Of a DNA stretch of 31,282 nucleotides, positions 4,240-27,247 are shown in pieces. The notes beneath the pieces were generated by a model. That model ran no database searches and was not told the DNA's origin. It was given only the letters and a program-made list of their open reading frames with translations. The first letter of the stretch is position 1. Each line of letters opens with the position of its first letter. The DNA is from Oscillospiraceae bacterium. GTDB taxonomy: Bacteria > Bacillota > Clostridia > Oscillospirales > Ruminococcaceae. A program made the translations under genes and the position numbers. The DNA lies in assembly GCA_031281115.1 (NCBI GenBank), contig JAITFV010000080.1, positions 1 to 31,282 on the forward strand. The letters are read 5' to 3'.

Positions 4240-4411
4240 TATAGCCAGTTAAGTTAAAAACGCTTTAGCGTTTTTAACCCGCGGCGTATACGCCGCGAAC
4301 CGCCAAAGGCGGCTTGACTTGACTGCATAGCTGATTGTCCGTGCTGATGGCACGGCGACAAGCGTCGCTTGCCGAGAAAACACTTTAGTGTTTTCAATTT
4401 AATCAGCTATA
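4240..4411 (+). repeat. 172-bp multi-hairpin element, copy 1
   Basis: The element has imperfect terminal inverted repeats (TATAGCCAGTTAAG and the complement of TATAGCTGATTAAA, differing only by transitions). It divides into two arms. The left is closed by CAGTTAAGTT pairing imperfectly with AACTTGACTG-type sequence near 4315-4325. The right is closed by a perfect ATAGCTGATT (4327-4336)/AATCAGCTAT (4401-4410) stem. Inside are hairpins with stems AAAACGC, CGCGGCGTA, CCGCC, CCGTGC, GCGAC and GAAAACAC. It codes for no protein. Copy 2 at 8791 has the same length and orientation, with six differences. Its right end supplies the stop codon of the kinase gene at 4407. Confidence 0.9.
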
Positions 4412-7400
4412 TATTTTTATCCGCAGCTTCTATAACTTTTTCAAACTCGCCGCAAAGCAGAGCTTCCGCAATCTCGTCTAATAAATTATTCGTTTCATCC
4501 GGCCACGATTTCGCTTTCAGTTCATCCAGCGCTGCTTTCGCTTCTCTCTTCTTGAAGCACGCACACGCCGCCGCGATTTCCGTCAATTTTTCCCGCAAGA
4601 ACTCGGGGCAGCCGCAGGAAGCTTTATCCGAGCCGTTCCTGTTTTTATTTAAGAGGGTTAATTTTTCGAGCAGAGCGAGAAGCGCATCCGCGAACAGCGG
4701 GGCTTCTTTACGGATTGTATTTGTTTCGCAGTTTACACCTGCTTTTTCCAGCTTGAGCGCAGTGTTTGAAAGCATTGTTTCATTTATATTTGCAAGCGCG
4801 CTTTTTAAGCCGTGAGCAGTAGTTGCAAGCAATTCAAAATTAATCTTCTCTTCACCGAGTAAATTCTCCAGCACGGCAAGCGCGCTTTTTATGTCGAGAG
4901 CAACTGCCGCCGCGAGTTCCCCGTCAACAGGCTTTTTCCGTCCCTGTTTTGCTTTGCGGCGCGCCGCTTCAAGCACTACGGGCGGCTGCTTATCGCGGAT
5001 AAAACGGTTAAGTATGATGTTAAGCTCGCGCAGGTCAACCGGCTTGGAAATATAGCCGTCGAAACCCTTGCTTAAAAACATCTCTGACGAGCCGGAAATC
5101 GCGTTTGCAGTCAATGCGACTATAGGCTGCTTGTATCCTGTGCCGCGTATAATTTCAGCCGCTTCCACACCGTTCATCTCAGGCATCATGTGGTCCATGA
5201 AAATTATGTCGTATTGCTTGCCGTTCTTGATTTTCTTCACAGCTTCAAAGCCGCTCGAGGCTGTTTCTATTCTAAGTCCGTAAGGCATCATCATGCCTTT
5301 TGCCACGTAAAGGTTCGAATCAATGTCGTCAACGACCAAAACACTGCCGTAAGGCATATATTCGTGTACGATTTGTGCGCGTTTAAGTTTCAGCGTGTCT
5401 CTGAAGCGGCTGGAAAGCAGGCTGCTGACAATTTCCGCCCCGCATACGGCGGTGCCTATGCGCCTTTGAGGCAGGCGAACGGTAAATACCGAACCTTTCC
5501 CGGGTTCGCTTTCAACGATAACATCGCCGCCCATCGCATAAACAAGACGTTTTGTTATGTTCATGCCCAGCCCTGTCCCTACCGTACTACGATTTACGTC
5601 CTTGGCGAAGCGGGCGTATTCCTCGAAAAGCTTGCTGATTTGCTCCTCTGTCATACCCTGACCGGTATCGCTCACGCACAAGACAAGAGTGATGTCATCG
5701 TCCGATTCGGAAACTGCGGGTTCCGACCAAACGGACAGCTCTACCCCGCCTTTTTCTGTGTATTTGAAGGCGTTGGAAAGTATATTGTTGAGAATTTGTT
5801 TAATACGCAGCTCATCGCCGTATAAATCAAGCGGAGTGTTTTCGTCTAACTTCAGCGTAAATTCAATCGTCTTGCTTTCGTGGCACAGCAGATTAAGCTG
5901 CATTGTATCATTTATGATACTGGGAGTACTGTAATGGGTCGGTATTATTTCAAGTTTACCCGCTTCAATTTTAGAAAGGTCTAAGATATCGTTAATTATG
6001 CTGAGCAAGAGATTCCCCGAGTTATATATTATACTGAACGCTTCCTCCGTGTCGGGATGGTTTGCTTCTTTTTGCAGCTGGAACTCGGCGGTACCGAGGA
6101 TTGCGTTCATCGGGGTACGGATTTCATGGCTGATGTGCGAGAGGAACTTGCTCTTGGCTTTATTTGCGGCTTCGGCTTTTGCCCGCTGTTTTTCCGCCTC
6201 GTGAATAAGGTTTCTCATTTCTGTCATGTCGAAAATTGCGCCCACGGCATGAATAGGATTTCCCTCTTCATCGCGGATTGTTTCGCCGGTCGCATGGATA
6301 TAACCGAGGTCGCCGTTCTTTTTAATTACACGGTAGTTAATGTTAAAGGGTGTTTTTCCGGTTTTATCCAAGATATGAGCGGAAAGAGCGTCAGGAACTA
6401 TGTTTAAGTCTTCCGGATGCAGACTTTCGATAATACTGCCGTTTAAATTCGGGAAATCATTGACGTCGTTATATCCGAGCATGCGCCGGAATTCATTCGA
6501 CCAAATAATTTCATTTTCGGGATTTGTCGGGTCTTCCGGTACCACCTTCATATCCCACAAGCCTATATCTCCGGTTTTTATTGCAAGATTCAGCTTCGCT
6601 AACTGCAACTCTTTTTCTTCGGCGGCGGCTTCAATCTCCTGCATCATTTGTTTATGCTCACGTAAATCGCGGCTGTATCCCGCAACGAACTTTTCACCTT
6701 TGAAATCAATGCAGACATAGGTATCTTCATGCGGCAGCGGTTCTCCTTCCGGCGTAAAACACAAAAACTCGACTTTTTGGCAGCCTGTTTCAAAGGTTCT
6801 TTTAACAGCTTCTCTTAAATAGAAATCAGAGCGGGTTCCGCAGGGCTGAAACTCAGGCATTAGCTCAAAGTATCTTTTTACATATTCATCTTTTGTCAGG
6901 TTAAACATTTTTGCCGCTGCCTCATTGCAGTCGGTCATGTTTAGGCTTCTGTCCCAGAAGTGCGCGGCGAACGGCGTTGAATCAAACAGTATCCGTACAC
7001 GTTCATCCATTTTATACGCCTGCTCCATCTCTACGAGCTGAGCATTAACGAGTATATTCTTTGTGTGTTCAACTTTAACATCTTTCTTTGATTTAACTAT
7101 GCAGTTTTCCGGAATATTTACGTTCAGCGCGATTTTTCGAGCCATGTCATGGCAGGTTTTCGAGCCGCAGGCGTAGCAGTCAATGTGCTGCTGCTCATAA
7201 TCGTTCTTGTCTAAGAGCTGATAAGCATTTTCTATATCCTCGTTTGTTATTTTCGGGAAAGGTGTATAAACAGGCTTGTACTCCCGTAAAAAATGTGAGA
7301 GGTCAAGGAGCTCGTCAAACATTTTGCGAGCCGAATTATAATGTTCTTTTTTGCGTTCTTCAATTACGTTATGTGCGCTTTTATTCATCGTTTTATCTAT

Positions 7401-8333
7401 TTCAAAAATACACTTGTCACGCAAAGAGGCGCTGCCGATATTGCAGCCGTCGGTACAGCCTAATACATCATATACGTCGGGCAGAAAATCCTCTAAAGAT
7501 TCTGCATATTTATTCAGCTTGTCATAGACACCGATACCTTCCGCGTTCGCTATGTGCAGTTTTTTGCTCATAAAATATTCCAAATTTTCTTTAAAGCCGC
7601 CCGGCATGGGGAACAGCGAACCTAAGCCGCTTTCAGCGTGGTCGAAAGCGGTTTCCTCATCAGGGAGTTGAATCCCGTTCTTTTCCAAGTGTTCAAGCAG
7701 CTTCGCAAACGTGATGCTGTAATCGGCGAGCCCGGTGCTTTCAAACTCAGTTTTCTTCGCCATACACGGCGAAAGAGCGGCAATCCTGTCGTTAATGCCG
7801 CGATACTCCTTCATATAAACAGAAGTGCATGCCATCGGGCTTTGAACAGGGGATAATCTTTTCAACAGGTCATGGCGGTAAATCTCGCAGTATGTAACGA
7901 TTGGCGGGCAGGGCTGGGTTATAATCGGGGCAGTGTTCTCCTCCAAGTATTTAATATGCGCCCAAATGCAAATATCGGCTCCGAGTGAAACATCGTAGAT
8001 TTTGTTCACGCCGAGCCGTTTTAAACAAGTAAATAATCTTTTGTATTCCGGGATATTCGTTTTGATTGCGGGTGCGGCGATTACCGAAACAGGGACTCCG
8101 CTCGCCAGGTCATCAAAAAAGCGCTCGGTATCATCCCGGAAGCACCTCGCATCATGTTTGCAGGCGGAAACACAAAAACCGCAGACTATGCATTTCTCAT
8201 GGTTAATTTTAACCTTGATATTGCCGGCTTCATCAAGATACGTGATATTCGCCATTTCCATCGGACATTCGCGTATACACCGATTACAGCCGGTACATAA
8301 ATCAAGCCGTTCCCTAACAACTTCAATCATCAT
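4407..8333 (-). CDS. [FeFe]-hydrogenase-like sensor fused to a hybrid histidine kinase with receiver and Hpt domains
   Basis: This 1308-residue cytoplasmic protein has no membrane segment. Domain order: two [4Fe-4S] ferredoxin motifs (C13, C16, C19, C23; C48, C51, C54, C58); a [FeFe]-hydrogenase large-subunit-like domain (about 65-370); an Fe-S domain (C386, C389, C394, C411); PAS (440-560); a second PAS (580-705); HisKA (H736); HATPase (N850, N854; DTGQGM and GTGLGM); receiver (D1002, D1003, phospho-acceptor D1047, K1097); Hpt (H1174). The four cysteines that hold the H-cluster cubane are present (C142; C190 with K193; C293 and C297). The proton-relay cysteine next to the first is replaced by proline, as expected for a sensor. 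Histidine-kinase-linked sensory hydrogenases (group C type) are known. The start overlaps the receiver gene by 11 nt. The stop TAG lies in the 172-bp element. Its kinase core is a close paralogue of 20731-23358. Confidence 0.9.
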   Translation of the reverse strand: MMIEVVRERLDLCTGCNRCIRECPMEMANITYLDEAGNIKVKINHEKCIVCGFCVSACKHDARCFRDDTERFFDDLASGVPVSVIAAPAIKTNIPEYKRLFTCLKRLGVNKIYDVSLGADICIWAHIKYLEENTAPIITQPCPPIVTYCEIYRHDLLKRLSPVQSPMACTSVYMKEYRGINDRIAALSPCMAKKTEFESTGLADYSITFAKLLEHLEKNGIQLPDEETAFDHAESGLGSLFPMPGGFKENLEYFMSKKLHIANAEGIGVYDKLNKYAESLEDFLPDVYDVLGCTDGCNIGSASLRDKCIFEIDKTMNKSAHNVIEERKKEHYNSARKMFDELLDLSHFLREYKPVYTPFPKITNEDIENAYQLLDKNDYEQQHIDCYACGSKTCHDMARKIALNVNIPENCIVKSKKDVKVEHTKNILVNAQLVEMEQAYKMDERVRILFDSTPFAAHFWDRSLNMTDCNEAAAKMFNLTKDEYVKRYFELMPEFQPCGTRSDFYLREAVKRTFETGCQKVEFLCFTPEGEPLPHEDTYVCIDFKGEKFVAGYSRDLREHKQMMQEIEAAAEEKELQLAKLNLAIKTGDIGLWDMKVVPEDPTNPENEIIWSNEFRRMLGYNDVNDFPNLNGSIIESLHPEDLNIVPDALSAHILDKTGKTPFNINYRVIKKNGDLGYIHATGETIRDEEGNPIHAVGAIFDMTEMRNLIHEAEKQRAKAEAANKAKSKFLSHISHEIRTPMNAILGTAEFQLQKEANHPDTEEAFSIIYNSGNLLLSIINDILDLSKIEAGKLEIIPTHYSTPSIINDTMQLNLLCHESKTIEFTLKLDENTPLDLYGDELRIKQILNNILSNAFKYTEKGGVELSVWSEPAVSESDDDITLVLCVSDTGQGMTEEQISKLFEEYARFAKDVNRSTVGTGLGMNITKRLVYAMGGDVIVESEPGKGSVFTVRLPQRRIGTAVCGAEIVSSLLSSRFRDTLKLKRAQIVHEYMPYGSVLVVDDIDSNLYVAKGMMMPYGLRIETASSGFEAVKKIKNGKQYDIIFMDHMMPEMNGVEAAEIIRGTGYKQPIVALTANAISGSSEMFLSKGFDGYISKPVDLRELNIILNRFIRDKQPPVVLEAARRKAKQGRKKPVDGELAAAVALDIKSALAVLENLLGEEKINFELLATTAHGLKSALANINETMLSNTALKLEKAGVNCETNTIRKEAPLFADALLALLEKLTLLNKNRNGSDKASCGCPEFLREKLTEIAAACACFKKREAKAALDELKAKSWPDETNNLLDEIAEALLCGEFEKVIEAADKNI

Positions 8334-8700
8334 CTTTACCTTTACGAATATGTGCTTTTATGCGGCTGAGAAGAGACGGCGCGGAAAAAGGCTTGTAAAC
8401 AATATCAACTGCGCCGAGCGCGAACCCCTGTGCTTCTATTGAGGTATTTCTGTTCCCTGTCAGGAAGATTACCGGAATATCCGCGAATTTAGCGTCGGCT
8501 TTCAAGCGCTCCAAAGCTTCAAAGCCGTTAATCTCCGGCATCATTATGTCAAGCAGAATTAAATCAGGTATAACGTCATTCAGCATCTTGAACATGATGT
8601 CTGCAGACAAAATTGTAATCACCTCATAATGCCCGGATAATGCCTGCTCCGCCATTACAAGGTTTGCTCTGTTGTCATCTACCGCGAAAATCGTTTTCAT
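8323..8700 (-). CDS. Single-domain response regulator (CheY-like)
   Basis: A 125-residue receiver domain with nothing attached: acidic pair D8 and D9, phospho-acceptor D51 (LLDIMMP), T81 and K103. It has no output domain, so it should act as a phosphate shuttle or by protein contact. Its 3' end overlaps the start of the hydrogenase-like kinase by 11 nt, so it is the probable partner, perhaps carrying phosphate to or from the Hpt domain at H1174. It resembles the receiver part of the HD-GYP protein at 23378 (shared pattern KTIF-VDD, NLxMAxxAL, FEALxRLK, IPVIFLT, IKPFS-type end). A strong ribosome site (AAGGAGAG) precedes ATG 8700. The predicted leader of about 300 nt contains element copy 2. 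Confidence 0.92.
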   Translation of the reverse strand: MKTIFAVDDNRANLVMAEQALSGHYEVITILSADIMFKMLNDVIPDLILLDIMMPEINGFEALERLKADAKFADIPVIFLTGNRNTSIEAQGFALGAVDIVYKPFSAPSLLSRIKAHIRKGKDDD

Positions 8701-8790
8701 CTTTACTCTCCTTACTGTGTCATCAAACTCAAAAGTCTTCTCACTCGAGGTTAGGAATTGCCAAGAAATAAACTTGACATCTGATACTGT

Positions 8791-8962
8791 TATAGCCAGT
8801 TAAGTTAAAAACGCCAAAGCGTTTTTAACCCGCGGCGTATACGCCGCGAACCGCCAAAGGCGGCTTGACTTGACTGCATAGCTGATTGTTCGTGCTGATG
8901 GCACGGCGGCAAGCGCCGCTTGCCGAGAAAACACTTTAGTGTTTTCAATTTAATCAGCTATA
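8791..8962 (+). repeat. 172-bp multi-hairpin element, copy 2
   Basis: Same length, orientation and hairpin order as copy 1 at 4240. Identity extends a few bases outside the ends (8785-8963). Differences: three in a hairpin loop (TTTA becomes CAAA), one pair that keeps a stem paired (GCGAC/GTCGC becomes GCGGC/GCCGC), and one C-to-T at the base of the CCGTGC stem that leaves a wobble pair. It lies between the minus-strand promoter at 9016-9044 and the receiver gene at 8700, so it would be part of the 5' leader of that mRNA. The flank 8963-8979 forms a small extra hairpin (TCCATT/AATGGA). Confidence 0.9.
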
Positions 8963-9015
8963 TCCATTCAAGAAATGGACAACAGTATTAGCATTAAGCA
9001 GGAAACCCCTTATTA

Positions 9016-10964: not shown

Positions 10965-11033
10965 ATGCGTCTAATTTATATTAGGCGAAGCAGGGACGAA
11001 CTGCATTCGTCCGAGGCGTAGAAAATCTGTATT
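10965..11033 (+). repeat. Repeat leader A before the transposase (REP palindrome unit)
   Basis: A 69-bp unit: a CTAATTTATATTAGGC palindrome, then a GGACGAACTGCATTCGTCC palindrome, then a tail ending CTGTATT. The same unit occurs at 11567-11640 with 5 extra bases. It ends just before the ribosome site of the transposase gene. Confidence 0.85.
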
Positions 11034-11048: not shown

Positions 11049-11546
11049 ATGCAAAAAGAATTGCCTGTAAGAAAAAATATAAGATTGCAAGGATACGATT
11101 ATTCAAGCGCGGGATATTATTTTGTGACGATATGTGCTAAAAACGGTCACGAAATGCTGGGTTCGATTGATGTAGGGACGAACTGTGTTCGTCCGTGTTT
11201 CTCCGAATACGGGTATATCGTAGACAAAGAAATAGCAGTTTTATCAAACACTTATGATACAGTCCATGTTGATAAGTATGTTATTATGCCGAACCATATT
11301 CACATGATTATTGTAATCGAAGCGGATAACGACGGACGAACACAGTTCGTCCCTACGATTTCACGTATCATAAAACAATTTAAGGGTTCTATTACGAAAC
11401 AAATTGGGTTTTCATTATGGCAACCGAGATTTTATGATGAAATAATCAGAAATGAAGAAGCCTATCGTAACATATGGCATTACATAGACGAAAATCCATT
11501 GAAATGGGTTGAAGATAGATATAATTTGAAGGAGACACTTCGATGA
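11049..11546 (+). CDS. REP-associated tyrosine transposase (RAYT, IS200/Y1 family)
   Basis: The 165-residue protein has the Y1-transposase HUH motif (YVIMPNHIHMII, H83 and H85), the N-terminal RKNIRLQGYDYS...YYFVTIC strand pattern and the C-terminal WQPRFYDEIIRNE...YIDENP block. These are typical of RAYTs, single-copy enzymes that process REP palindromes as single-stranded DNA. I chose ATG 11049, with GAGGTG 5-6 nt upstream, over TTG 11034. REP-type palindromes flank the gene (10965, 11567). Two copies, in opposite orientation and identical over 25 bp, lie inside the coding sequence (11172-11196, 11332-11356; residues 42-49 and 95-103). The frame is open, so the protein is probably intact. 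Confidence 0.88.
   Translation: MQKELPVRKNIRLQGYDYSSAGYYFVTICAKNGHEMLGSIDVGTNCVRPCFSEYGYIVDKEIAVLSNTYDTVHVDKYVIMPNHIHMIIVIEADNDGRTQFVPTISRIIKQFKGSITKQIGFSLWQPRFYDEIIRNEEAYRNIWHYIDENPLKWVEDRYNLKETLR
11172..11356. repeat. Pair of inverted REP palindromes inside the transposase gene
   Basis: 11172-11196 and 11332-11356 are perfect 25-bp inverted copies of each other, with the core GGACGAACTGTGTTCGTCC. Each arm is itself a palindrome. Related copies lie in the leaders at 10965 and 11567 and, with C/T changes, at 20711-20735. Confidence 0.9.
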
Positions 11547-11583: not shown

Positions 11584-11640
11584 TAGGCGAAGTTGCGTAG
11601 GGACGAACTGCGTTCGTCCGAGGCGTAGAAAATCTGTATT
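11567..11640 (+). repeat. Repeat leader B before the VOC gene (REP palindrome unit)
   Basis: A second copy of the unit at 10965-11033: a GCCTAAT/ATTAGGC palindrome, a GGACGAACTGCGTTCGTCC palindrome and the same tail ending CTGTATT. It differs by a 5-bp insertion and a few substitutions. The VOC ribosome site follows directly. Confidence 0.85.
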
Positions 11641-24727: not shown

Positions 24728-27247
24728 ATGAAAAAGCGCATAATATCTATGTTTATCGCGGTCGCGGTAATAATTACAACAATGCCGACAATTACGCTGA
24801 CGGCGGGGGCGGCGGTTTCGGGCATTGGTTGGCATTTTTCAAACGGAACGCTGACGATTTCCACCGATGAGGGAACGACAGCTTGGCGAACAGGAAGAGG
24901 GTTTGCGACTTTCCAGATTACAGATGTAACGACTGTAGTGATTGAAAATAGCGTTGAAACTATAGGCAATTGGGCGTTTTATGGTTGCACAAGCCTTGTA
25001 TTTGTAACAATCGGGAACGGCGCTGAAGCTATAGGCGGCGAGTCTGCGTTTATAGGTTGCACAAGCCTTGAATCAATTGATGTTGACATAAACAATCCTA
25101 ATTTTTCGAGTATAGACGGAGTTTTATTCAACAAAGAGCAAACCGCATTAATTCAATATCCCGCCGGCAATACAAGAACGAGTTACACAATCCCCGACAG
25201 CGTTAGGAGCATAGGAAATAGTGCATTTTCGTTGTGCACAAGTCTTGAATCAATTGTAATCCCCGACAGTGTTACAAGCATAGAAACCGCTGCGTTTTAT
25301 GGTTGCACAAGTCTTGAATCAATTGTAATCCCCAACAGCGTTAGGAGCATAGGTGACAATGCGTTTTATGGTTGCACAAGCCTTGTATCTGTAACAATCG
25401 GGAACAGCGTTGAAACTATAGAAAGCGGTGCGTTTCGAAATTGCACAAGCCTTAAATCTGTAATAATCGGGAACAGCGTTACGAGCATAGGGAGCCTTGC
25501 GTTTACAGGTTGCACAAGCCTTGAATCAATTGTAATACCTGACAACGTTACGAGAATAGGAAATTCTGCGTTTCAGGGTTGCACAAGCCTTGTGTCTGTA
25601 ACAATCGGGAACGGCGTTACGAGCATAAGAAATTATATGTTTCTGGATTGCACAAGCCTTGAATCTGTAACAATCGGGAACGGCGTTACGAGCATAGATT
25701 TGAATGCGTTTCGCAATACTGCATTGCTTGATAATCAATCGGACGGAGTAGTTTATATAGGAAATATAGCGTGTACATGGAAAGGAACAATGCCTGAAGA
25801 AACATCAATAACATTAAAAGAGGGTACAAGGATAATAGCAGATGATGCATTTAGAAGCAGCATAAATCTTATATCAATCACAATCCCAGATAGCGTTGAA
25901 ACTATAGGAAATTATGCGTTTTATGGCTGCACAAGCCTTGAATCAATTGTAATCCCAGATAGCGTTACGAGCATAGGATACAGTGCGTTTTCAAATTGCA
26001 CAAGCCTTGAATCAATTGTAATCCCCGACAGCGTTACGAGCATAAGAGATTGGGCGTTTGCAGGTTGCACAAGCCTTGAATCTGTAACAATCGGAAACAG
26101 CGTTGAAACTATAGGCGGTTGGGCGTTTCGCGGCTGCACAAGCCTTGAATCAATTGTAATCCCCGACAGCGTTGAAACTATAGGCATGTTTGCGTTTTCT
26201 GATTGCACAAGCCTTGAATCAATTGTAATCCCCGACAGTGTTACGAGCATAGGACACTTTGCGTTTATTGATTGCACAAGCCTTGAATCTGTAACAATCG
26301 GGAACGGCGTTACGAGCATAGGAAATTATGCGTTTGACGGTTGCACAAGCCTTGAAACGGTTTCTTTCAGAGGGGAAACTCCTCCGGAATTCGGCTTTAG
26401 TGTTTTTTGGGACACACCGGTATTAACAACGATTTTCGTGCCTTTAGGTGCGGCGGCGGCGTATCAAGCTGTTCCGCAGTTACGTTTTTATGAAATTATT
26501 GAAATAGATATGAGTTGCACCGATTGTAATAAACACCCCTGCGAGTGCGAAAAAGCTCACGATTGCGCCGCCCTCGGTCATAAATTCGGCGCGTGGAACA
26601 TTACGGTAACTGCGACAACATCAAGAACGGGTTCACGCGAGCGGATTTGCGAAGTTTGTGAACATAAAGAAACTGAAACAATCGCGAGATTAACAGGCGG
26701 CGGTGGCGGCGGCGGTGGCGGCGGTTCGTCCACTCCGACAGATACACCGACAACCCCAACCGTAGCCGTAACAACAGGAACGGCTACATGGACGGTTACG
26801 AGTATTCCGCGCACTGCCTTAACCGCTCTCGGTCTTAGCGCGGATATTCCTGTTAATCAAATTAGAATCCCGACAGGCGCGACAGGAAATACAAGTGTAA
26901 GCGTGGGCGCGGATTACATAGGGCAAAATGCGGTTTTAGTGCAACTCAATGCAGAAACAAACGAACTTGAATTTGTTTCCGCTTCCACGGTTGGCGCAAA
27001 CGGCAACGCGAGTATAAATATTAGGGAAACTGGGGATTTCTTAGTGCTGACGTTCAAGACTGGCGATATTACAGGAACAGGCGAGGTTGACACGGGCGAT
27101 GCGCTCGCGGTGTTGCGTGACGTTGCGGGGATTGCAAAGCTGAACAGCATACAAAGTTTCGTTGCGAACGGCGGCAAAGGCGATATAGGCACAAATAACG
27201 CACTGGATATTCTTAGGCTCGTGGCGGGGATTGTTGACAGGATTTAA
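24728..27247 (+). CDS. Secreted BspA-like leucine-rich-repeat protein with C-terminal dockerin-like domain
   Basis: The 839-residue protein has a signal peptide (basic start KKR, hydrophobic core, AGAA cleavage region near residue 29). Some 16-17 BspA/Treponema-type leucine-rich repeats of 23 residues follow (pattern AFxGCTSLESIVIPDSVTSIG), interrupted once near residue 330-380. Then come a Cys-rich CTDCNKHPCECE segment, an HKFGAWN-type module, a ten-glycine linker with Thr/Pro, a beta-rich domain, and two dockerin-like calcium-loop segments (GDITGTGEVDTGDALAVLR; GDIGTNNALDILRLVAG). BspA-like repeats mediate surface adhesion; a dockerin would bind a cohesin on a scaffold, none of which is in this window. 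AGGAG lies 6 nt before ATG. No sortase motif is visible. The repeat DNA is nearly identical from unit to unit. Confidence 0.9.
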   Translation: MKKRIISMFIAVAVIITTMPTITLTAGAAVSGIGWHFSNGTLTISTDEGTTAWRTGRGFATFQITDVTTVVIENSVETIGNWAFYGCTSLVFVTIGNGAEAIGGESAFIGCTSLESIDVDINNPNFSSIDGVLFNKEQTALIQYPAGNTRTSYTIPDSVRSIGNSAFSLCTSLESIVIPDSVTSIETAAFYGCTSLESIVIPNSVRSIGDNAFYGCTSLVSVTIGNSVETIESGAFRNCTSLKSVIIGNSVTSIGSLAFTGCTSLESIVIPDNVTRIGNSAFQGCTSLVSVTIGNGVTSIRNYMFLDCTSLESVTIGNGVTSIDLNAFRNTALLDNQSDGVVYIGNIACTWKGTMPEETSITLKEGTRIIADDAFRSSINLISITIPDSVETIGNYAFYGCTSLESIVIPDSVTSIGYSAFSNCTSLESIVIPDSVTSIRDWAFAGCTSLESVTIGNSVETIGGWAFRGCTSLESIVIPDSVETIGMFAFSDCTSLESIVIPDSVTSIGHFAFIDCTSLESVTIGNGVTSIGNYAFDGCTSLETVSFRGETPPEFGFSVFWDTPVLTTIFVPLGAAAAYQAVPQLRFYEIIEIDMSCTDCNKHPCECEKAHDCAALGHKFGAWNITVTATTSRTGSRERICEVCEHKETETIARLTGGGGGGGGGGSSTPTDTPTTPTVAVTTGTATWTVTSIPRTALTALGLSADIPVNQIRIPTGATGNTSVSVGADYIGQNAVLVQLNAETNELEFVSASTVGANGNASINIRETGDFLVLTFKTGDITGTGEVDTGDALAVLRDVAGIAKLNSIQSFVANGGKGDIGTNNALDILRLVAGIVDRI
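24985..26360 (+). repeat. Tandem 69-bp coding repeats of the LRR gene
   Basis: Units carry GGTTGCACAAGCCTTGAATC, followed by one of two strand cassettes (IPDS or IGNS/IGNG) and one of three ends (VTSI, VETI, VRSI). The cassettes are mixed in no fixed order. The 69-bp period equals 23 codons, so unit gain or loss keeps the frame. Confidence 0.9.

Follow-up and report, generated by a model that had tools for sequence, protein, structure and literature searches.

A probable IS630-type miniature transposon with a predicted two-arm, six-hairpin fold in an Oscillospiraceae bacterium

Introduction

The window analysed here, a 31,282-nucleotide stretch of DNA from an Oscillospiraceae bacterium, carries two copies of one 172-bp element in the same orientation (Table 1). 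The original prediction, made from the letters alone, held that the differences between the copies preserve pairing and point to selection on a fold, in RNA or in single-stranded DNA, and did not recognise the family. What is this element, how would it move, and is its fold what selection sees?

Results

The two copies were found exactly where they had been placed, with the equal length and shared orientation claimed for them. They differ at six element positions (25, 26, 27, 100, 119 and 126), and most of what had been read into these differences was correct: positions 25-27 lie in the loop of the first hairpin, and the change at position 100 turns C-G into U-G, the wobble described at a stem base. 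The last two changes had been taken for a compensatory pair, but both in the best fold of the consensus and in helix 6 as conserved between species the partner of position 119 is 133, and 126 lies unpaired in a loop. The changes at 119 and 126 restore pairing only in a weaker 5-bp hairpin that excludes the conserved one, and in the latter they break a pair, which cmsearch flags as non-standard in copy 1. Two window copies alone cannot show selection on the fold.

Copy 1 contains the TAG stop (4407-4409) of a reverse-strand gene (4407-8333) in which an iron-only hydrogenase large-subunit domain is fused to PAS, histidine kinase and response-regulator domains. The window also holds a gene for a BspA-type leucine-rich repeat protein with 69-bp DNA repeats (24728-27247, forward strand) and three copies of a short repeat, AGGGACGAACTGYRTTCGTCCG (10992-11033, 11174-11215 and 11599-11640).

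Table 1. Features of the two element copies in the window
Feature	Position	Strand	Description
Element copy 1	4240..4411	+	172 bp, TATAG...CTATA; cmsearch 154 bits
Element copy 2	8791..8962	+	172 bp; cmsearch 158 bits
Copy 1 left terminal inverted repeat	4240..4255	+	first TA is the presumed target duplication
Copy 1 right terminal inverted repeat	4396..4411	-	last TA is the presumed target duplication
Copy 1 arm 1	4244..4326	+	closing stem and hairpins 4253-4278, 4280-4297, 4300-4312; folds of copy 1 and consensus
Copy 1 arm 2	4327..4410	+	closing stem and hairpins 4339-4355, 4356-4374, 4376-4395; folds of copy 1 and consensus
Copy 2 arm 1	8795..8877	+	closing stem and hairpins 8804-8829, 8831-8848, 8851-8863; positional, from consensus fold and model alignment
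Copy 2 arm 2	8878..8961	+	closing stem and hairpins 8890-8906, 8907-8925, 8927-8946; positional, from consensus fold and model alignment
Copy 2 target repeat, left part with TA	8784..8792	+	ATACTGT; intact empty repeat in L015, L017, L038
Copy 2 target repeat, TA and right part	8961..8988	+	TCCATTCAAGAAATGGACAACAGTAT; comparison of filled and empty repeat

Copy 1 was folded together with seven flanking bases, giving z scores of -8.4 as RNA, -10.2 as the + strand of DNA and -9.4 as the - strand, and none of 200 shuffles folded as well in any of the three cases. The middle of the element holds complements of both ends, so that each half is a closing stem round three hairpins; the predicted two arms with about six hairpins were recovered as three hairpins per arm in the folds of copy 1 and of the consensus. 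The closing stem of arm 1 is completed through G-U pairs on the + strand. Exactly two three-hairpin arms were predicted on the + strand for all nine lineage sequences (one each from G000, G044, G102 and Th196P3bin36, three from G026 and two from G054) and on the - strand for eight of them; two arms of at least three hairpins appeared in 1 of 900 dinucleotide shuffles. The fold was more stable on the + strand in six of the nine sequences and on the - strand in three. Predicted stability is about equal on the two strands and does not decide between DNA and RNA.

The genome of the window (G000; 2.18 Mb in 333 contigs, 87% complete) has 40 scored element places, 12 of them cut by contig ends. These were the 40 scored of 73 candidates, and all 40 proved to be element places; other rows were palindromic matches within the first hairpin. 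Each of the 40 rows carries 0-5 substitutions relative to the consensus, deletions apart, which suggests a recent burst. Among the 21 of 22 loci that were parsed (L015 was left out), 16 were intergenic and five lay in a reading frame of at least 100 codons of the joined flanks.

Imperfect inverted ends, TATAGC..GCTATA, were seen in most copies with ends present. The ends mostly start TATAG and finish CTATA, with exceptions on the left (L015, L033, L035) and on the right (L020, L024), and some copies are missing an end. Copy 2 of the window and the copy at L004 are inserted in opposite arms of a second dispersed palindromic repeat, about ATACTGTTATCCATTTAAGAAATGGATAACAG (ATACTGTTATCCATT..AATGGATAACAG), at the equivalent position after CTGT, and this repeat is intact and empty at L015, L017 and L038. 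TA flanks the element on both sides in the two filled repeats and occurs once in the empty repeat, indicating a two-base TA duplication seen twice, in a comparison of two filled with three intact empty repeats whose sites are paralogous, not orthologous across strains. The left flank of copy 1 has only ACTGT in common with the second repeat. Window positions 8755-8779 and the 3' flank of L014 have a common stretch, GAATTGCCAAGAAATAAACTTGACA, possibly a piece of a third repeat.

At 172 bp, the element is too short for its own transposase. It is a small non-coding mobile element of a gut bacterium, and we put the probability that it is a non-autonomous, mobile miniature transposon (MITE) of the IS630 (Tc1/mariner-like) type at about 0.72, a figure that covers identity and mobility. 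No Rfam family reached its threshold: at gathering level the window gave two tRNAs only, and at E up to 10 the element drew five weak matches of 12.3-18.3 bits against thresholds of 35-100. The family, which the original prediction did not recognise, can now be recognised as an IS630-type MITE. An inverted pair of structured units, present in many and mostly intergenic copies (16/21), would also be expected of a palindromic element of REPIN type that a RAYT (Y1) transposase mobilises as single-stranded DNA. We consider this highly improbable, given the TA target duplication and ends that resemble those of IS630 elements; PF01797 was found in none of four genomes, all incomplete, against 5 of 14 control genomes.

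Within the genus, 10 of 71 genomes contain IS630-family DDE_3 transposases. Of seven transposase matches in G016, four run to TATAGTCAATTAACTTGAAAA or TATAGTCGATTAACTTAAAAA, all being fragments located at the edges of contigs; the others (C82, C101) are without such ends. The end TATAGTCAATTAACTTGAAAA agrees with MITE ends at 20-22 of 24 bases in the sister species G026 and 17 in G000, the end TATAGTCGATTAACTTAAAAA at 18-22 and 18, respectively, and agreement with the MITE ends of other lineages is 13-19 of 24. Two IS630 elements, in G100 and G036, have both ends visible and start TATAGC (ends read by eye), and these ends match MITE ends at only 7-15 of 24 bases. An intact cognate transposase was not found in G000, G026, G044 or G054. 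With PF13358, the single match in G000 was a fragment of another subgroup, with different ends as read by eye, and the other three genomes had zero matches; a search of these four genomes with the G016 transposase end returned only a decayed 31-residue remnant in G044. The window's copies would have an IS630-family transposase, supplied in trans, as their partner. A 1.6-kb pair of ends in G054, considered as an autonomous element, turned out to be two separate MITEs flanking one GTPase gene, which we take to be of the der/EngA type.

Searched as DNA against 99 genomes, its own included, the window's element matched in 4. Counts of the terminal pattern (forward/reverse) were 40/41 in G000, 47/51 in G026, 64/68 in G044 and 44/47 in G054, with 0-1 for a reversed-pattern control; they clearly exceeded the control in these four genomes and in G003, G016 and G102, were marginal in G019 (2/8) and G006 (3/4), and lay near the control in the remaining genomes. 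When named genome contigs were searched with a pattern spanning the G000 and G054 ends, 50 stretches matched, 48 of them in the Oscillospiraceae MAG Hs463_bin91 (which is G054) and one each in Hm464_bin56 and Th196P3bin36; Th196 denotes the termite Termes hospes (PMC7024585). Viral contigs had no terminal-pattern matches, and plasmid and phage records no match to the element. A covariance model run over the genus under strict filters, with 40 candidates scored per genome, found matches in 9 of 71 genomes, both of those in G101 being short. At L139 (363-695, G026) a copy with the two three-hairpin arms, a double cloverleaf, is split by a palindromic insert of another kind of about 163 bp, perhaps flanked by TTA.

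We compared seven lineage sequences in a MAFFT alignment (A2) in which three rows are G026 subfamilies. RNAalifold predicted 61 pairs, 28 of which have changed on both sides. Cells were paired in 93.6% of cases, against 84.5% in shuffled and 33-42% in slid alignments, although the structure was derived from the same alignment and this favours it over the slid versions. Double-changed cells numbered 52, against 19.1 in shuffles, none of 500 being as high; 'further pair types' were not above shuffles (317 of 500 as high). The two sides of each closing stem are separated by about 65 bases, and these stems covary at 4 of 11 and 5 of 11 pairs. The arm 1 hairpin nearest the middle is absent from the A2 and A6 consensus structures (seven helices each) because it is out of register in the alignments. 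Since a joint MAFFT alignment (A1) misaligns the hairpins of G054, this genome was analysed apart, with 6 of its 12 full-length elements (A3). Here changes on both sides were seen in 5 of 65 pairs, a number reached in 7 of 500 shuffles; nine cells were double-changed against 2.8 in shuffles (0 of 500 as high), and two of the six copies had linked pair changes in hairpins 2 and 3.

The covariance model, in whose construction G054 had no part, recovered 11 full-length places in that genome at E values from 2e-18 to 4e-14 on the better strand, within an overall span for full-length copies of 2e-18 to 2e-13; in a contrast set of long-hairpin MITEs (L231, L232, L235, L243 and L249), L249 alone was matched, at E 0.61. 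Seven model-aligned sequences, six of them outside the model and four from G102, had 35 of 60 pairs changed on both sides, in a model-guided alignment that leans towards the structure. Ten new matches were folded, and six gave two three-hairpin arms; G102b, G102e, L259 and L265 did not.

Put to the check named with the original prediction, whether further copies break pairs as often as they keep them, the inference from the two copies failed in G000: 21 G-U, six Watson-Crick and one double change stood against 17 A-C and seven otherwise broken pairs. Changes per site in the 40 rows of this genome were 0.0126 at paired and 0.0173 at unpaired sites, with one double change against 0.39 in shuffles (largest 2). 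The 26 older copies of G044, taken from 30 rows after leaving out L104, L110, L116 and L117 (cut or with another end), had rates of 0.0925 and 0.0824, and 10 double changes that pair against 8.3 in shuffles. The similar rates and shuffle-like doubles indicate no visible selection on the fold in the resident copies of these two genomes. The 26 copies of G026, from several subfamilies, changed at 0.044 per paired and 0.160 per unpaired site, with 10 double changes against 3.4 in shuffles (largest 8 of 300). They came from 33 hits, leaving out L042, L045, L058 and L135 (other subfamily or duplicates), L130 and L132 (query not spanned) and one identical row, and the own copy of L084, whose row repeats L081, was not counted. 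Selection on the fold, as first proposed, finds support between lineages (28/61 pairs; 52 cells against 19.1) and none in the two window copies or the residents of G000 and G044. The two three-hairpin arms persist in related species although a large part of their sequence differs. In our reading, lineages that go on moving retain the fold, and resting copies decay mostly irrespective of pairing, less so in G026.

The architecture was also met outside these sequences. G024 and G055 have one element each of 187-190 bp, against 169-176 bp for the other double cloverleaves, with other ends (TATACT...) and the same two three-hairpin arms, as if the shape were common to separate MITE families. The model by which both were found favours this fold, and their borders are provisional. 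At E 1e-3, one 15-base stretch was their sole BLAST match to the other lineage sequences, and their global identity to the G000 element was 0.61-0.62, shuffled sequences reaching 0.57. MITEs of G003 and G016 with like ends are mostly single long hairpins and not cloverleaves, and G054 also has shorter multicopy forms of 52, 88 and 119 bp. Its three 88-bp copies consist of one closing-stem unit with its own ends and may be monomers or deletion products. Should the single hairpins and the short G054 forms have moved in their present shape, movement would not require the double cloverleaf. We think it unlikely that the two three-hairpin arms are themselves what functions, as a mobile architecture that recurs whatever the end sequence and whose shape cells or transposases recognise.

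Alternatively, copies could be transcribed and act as RNA, whether as structured leaders, as sRNAs or as substrates of RNase III, along the lines proposed for NEMIS, with selection keeping the fold of the transcript. Sigma70-like promoters with a 17-base spacer read into the element in 8 of 27 3' flanks of G000 (mean 0.84 and largest 4 in 200 shuffles), the -10 box ending 4-8 bases from the element at L008, L009, L016, L018, L023, L032, L035 and L036. Extended -10 boxes, another criterion, were present in 7 of 27, and none of 500 shuffles had as many. Some copies are probably transcribed as leaders, judging from these promoter-like motifs. The excess was found after looking and in G000 only among four genomes, and we treat it as a lead: 5' flanks of G000 had promoters in only 3 of 28 cases, and there was no excess in G026 (3' 2/32, 5' 1/25), G044 (0/12, 0/13) or G054 (0/30, 1/41). 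The G-U pairs that complete the closing stem of arm 1 would suit a + strand transcript, but the promoters read the strand on which these wobbles become A-C. Resident copies have little bias towards G-U: changes to G-U and to A-C numbered 21 and 17 in G000, 86 and 91 in G044, and 52 and 37 in G026, and the element stays below the threshold of every Rfam family. We regard a selected RNA fold as unlikely.

The hairpin loops bear on events in DNA. Six of the 14 informative loops, defined as those that differ from their reverse complement by at least two bases, recur as the exact reverse complement, in three genomes: TAAA to TTTA in two rows of G000; ATTT/AAAT (13/11) and CGAG to CTCG (four) in G026; and TAAAT to ATTTA (one), TTT to AAA (three) and TTTA to TAAA (one) in G044. 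Loop inversions and multiple compensatory changes, though not both together, are reported as enriched footprints of template switching (PMC8794818). The inversions hint at template switching in DNA, for which the hairpins would need to form in DNA. Replication template switching might by itself, copying one side of a hairpin into the other, have produced the paired changes with no selection for a function of the fold, as the match of inversions and compensatory changes to the published footprints (PMC8794818) and the linked differences in hairpins 2 and 3 of two of six G054 copies would allow. Against this, 8 of the 14 informative loops show no inversion, the ATTT/AAAT split in G026 may be one inherited event, decaying G044 copies have no excess of doubles (10 against 8.3), and the closing stems covary across about 65 bases. 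A mutational process alone also leaves the three hairpins per arm and the persistence of 169-176 bp unexplained. We judge it improbable as a sufficient cause.

Discussion

IS630-type MITEs are already known, an example being RUP of Streptococcus pneumoniae, a 107-bp element for which IS630-Spn1 is the proposed mover (PMC2229807). The element resembles RUP in its TA target, many intergenic copies and, probably, IS630-like ends (PMC2229807). It differs in that RUP termini are described as pairing with each other (PMC3049150); in the present element the partner of each end is the middle, so that each closes a three-hairpin arm of its own. The comparison is by description, not sequence, and the hosts differ. 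TA at the termini, long terminal repeats and target duplication are shared with the Correia/NEMIS elements of Neisseria, and NEMIS also has a structured transcript (PMC2229807). The non-CIR repeat elements treated in that source form a stem loop by pairing of 5' and 3' ends, with no separate arms (PMC2229807). Set apart by description, the element differs from Correia/NEMIS in pairing its ends with the middle and not with each other, and a six-hairpin plan goes unmentioned for those repeats in the portions available.

The 5' and 3' halves of the CIR repeats of Caulobacter and Brucella do form two separate arms, but these are long stem loops in elements of about 110 bp with a GANTC motif, and terminal inverted repeats, present here, are not listed for CIR (PMC2229807). 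BOX repeats of S. pneumoniae are likewise modular, structured and MITE-like, but are built of boxA, boxB and boxC modules, and the ends compared in that study are those of ISSpn2 (PMC3049150). Dispersed hairpin elements that diverge in structure and composition are also described from sponge mitochondria, unlike the present ones in their mitochondrial location, a transposase link and TA duplication being unstated in the abstract (PMC2800124). No description of a two-arm, six-hairpin MITE was found in the literature searched, which takes in few subscription journals.

We propose that an IS630-family transposase moves the MITE in trans. Less surely, the plan may be kept since folding takes place in DNA in those copies that later move. 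The hairpins would be exposed in single-stranded DNA at replication, where template switching within them could help to repair the arms and sometimes invert a loop; after insertion, a copy would decay mostly neutrally. Such a DNA-level role of the fold is a tentative proposal to which we give less than even odds.

The analysis separates two things that are usually confounded, namely covariation among resident copies, absent in two of the three genomes tested, and covariation between moving lineages, which is strong. Applied to a mixture of copies from a genome, a covariation test could therefore give the false impression that each site holds a functional RNA. With its loop inversions, this MITE offers a natural setting in which to test template switching and hairpin formation in DNA. 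If the shape is indeed kept, MITEs may be grouped by their fold where sequence search fails.
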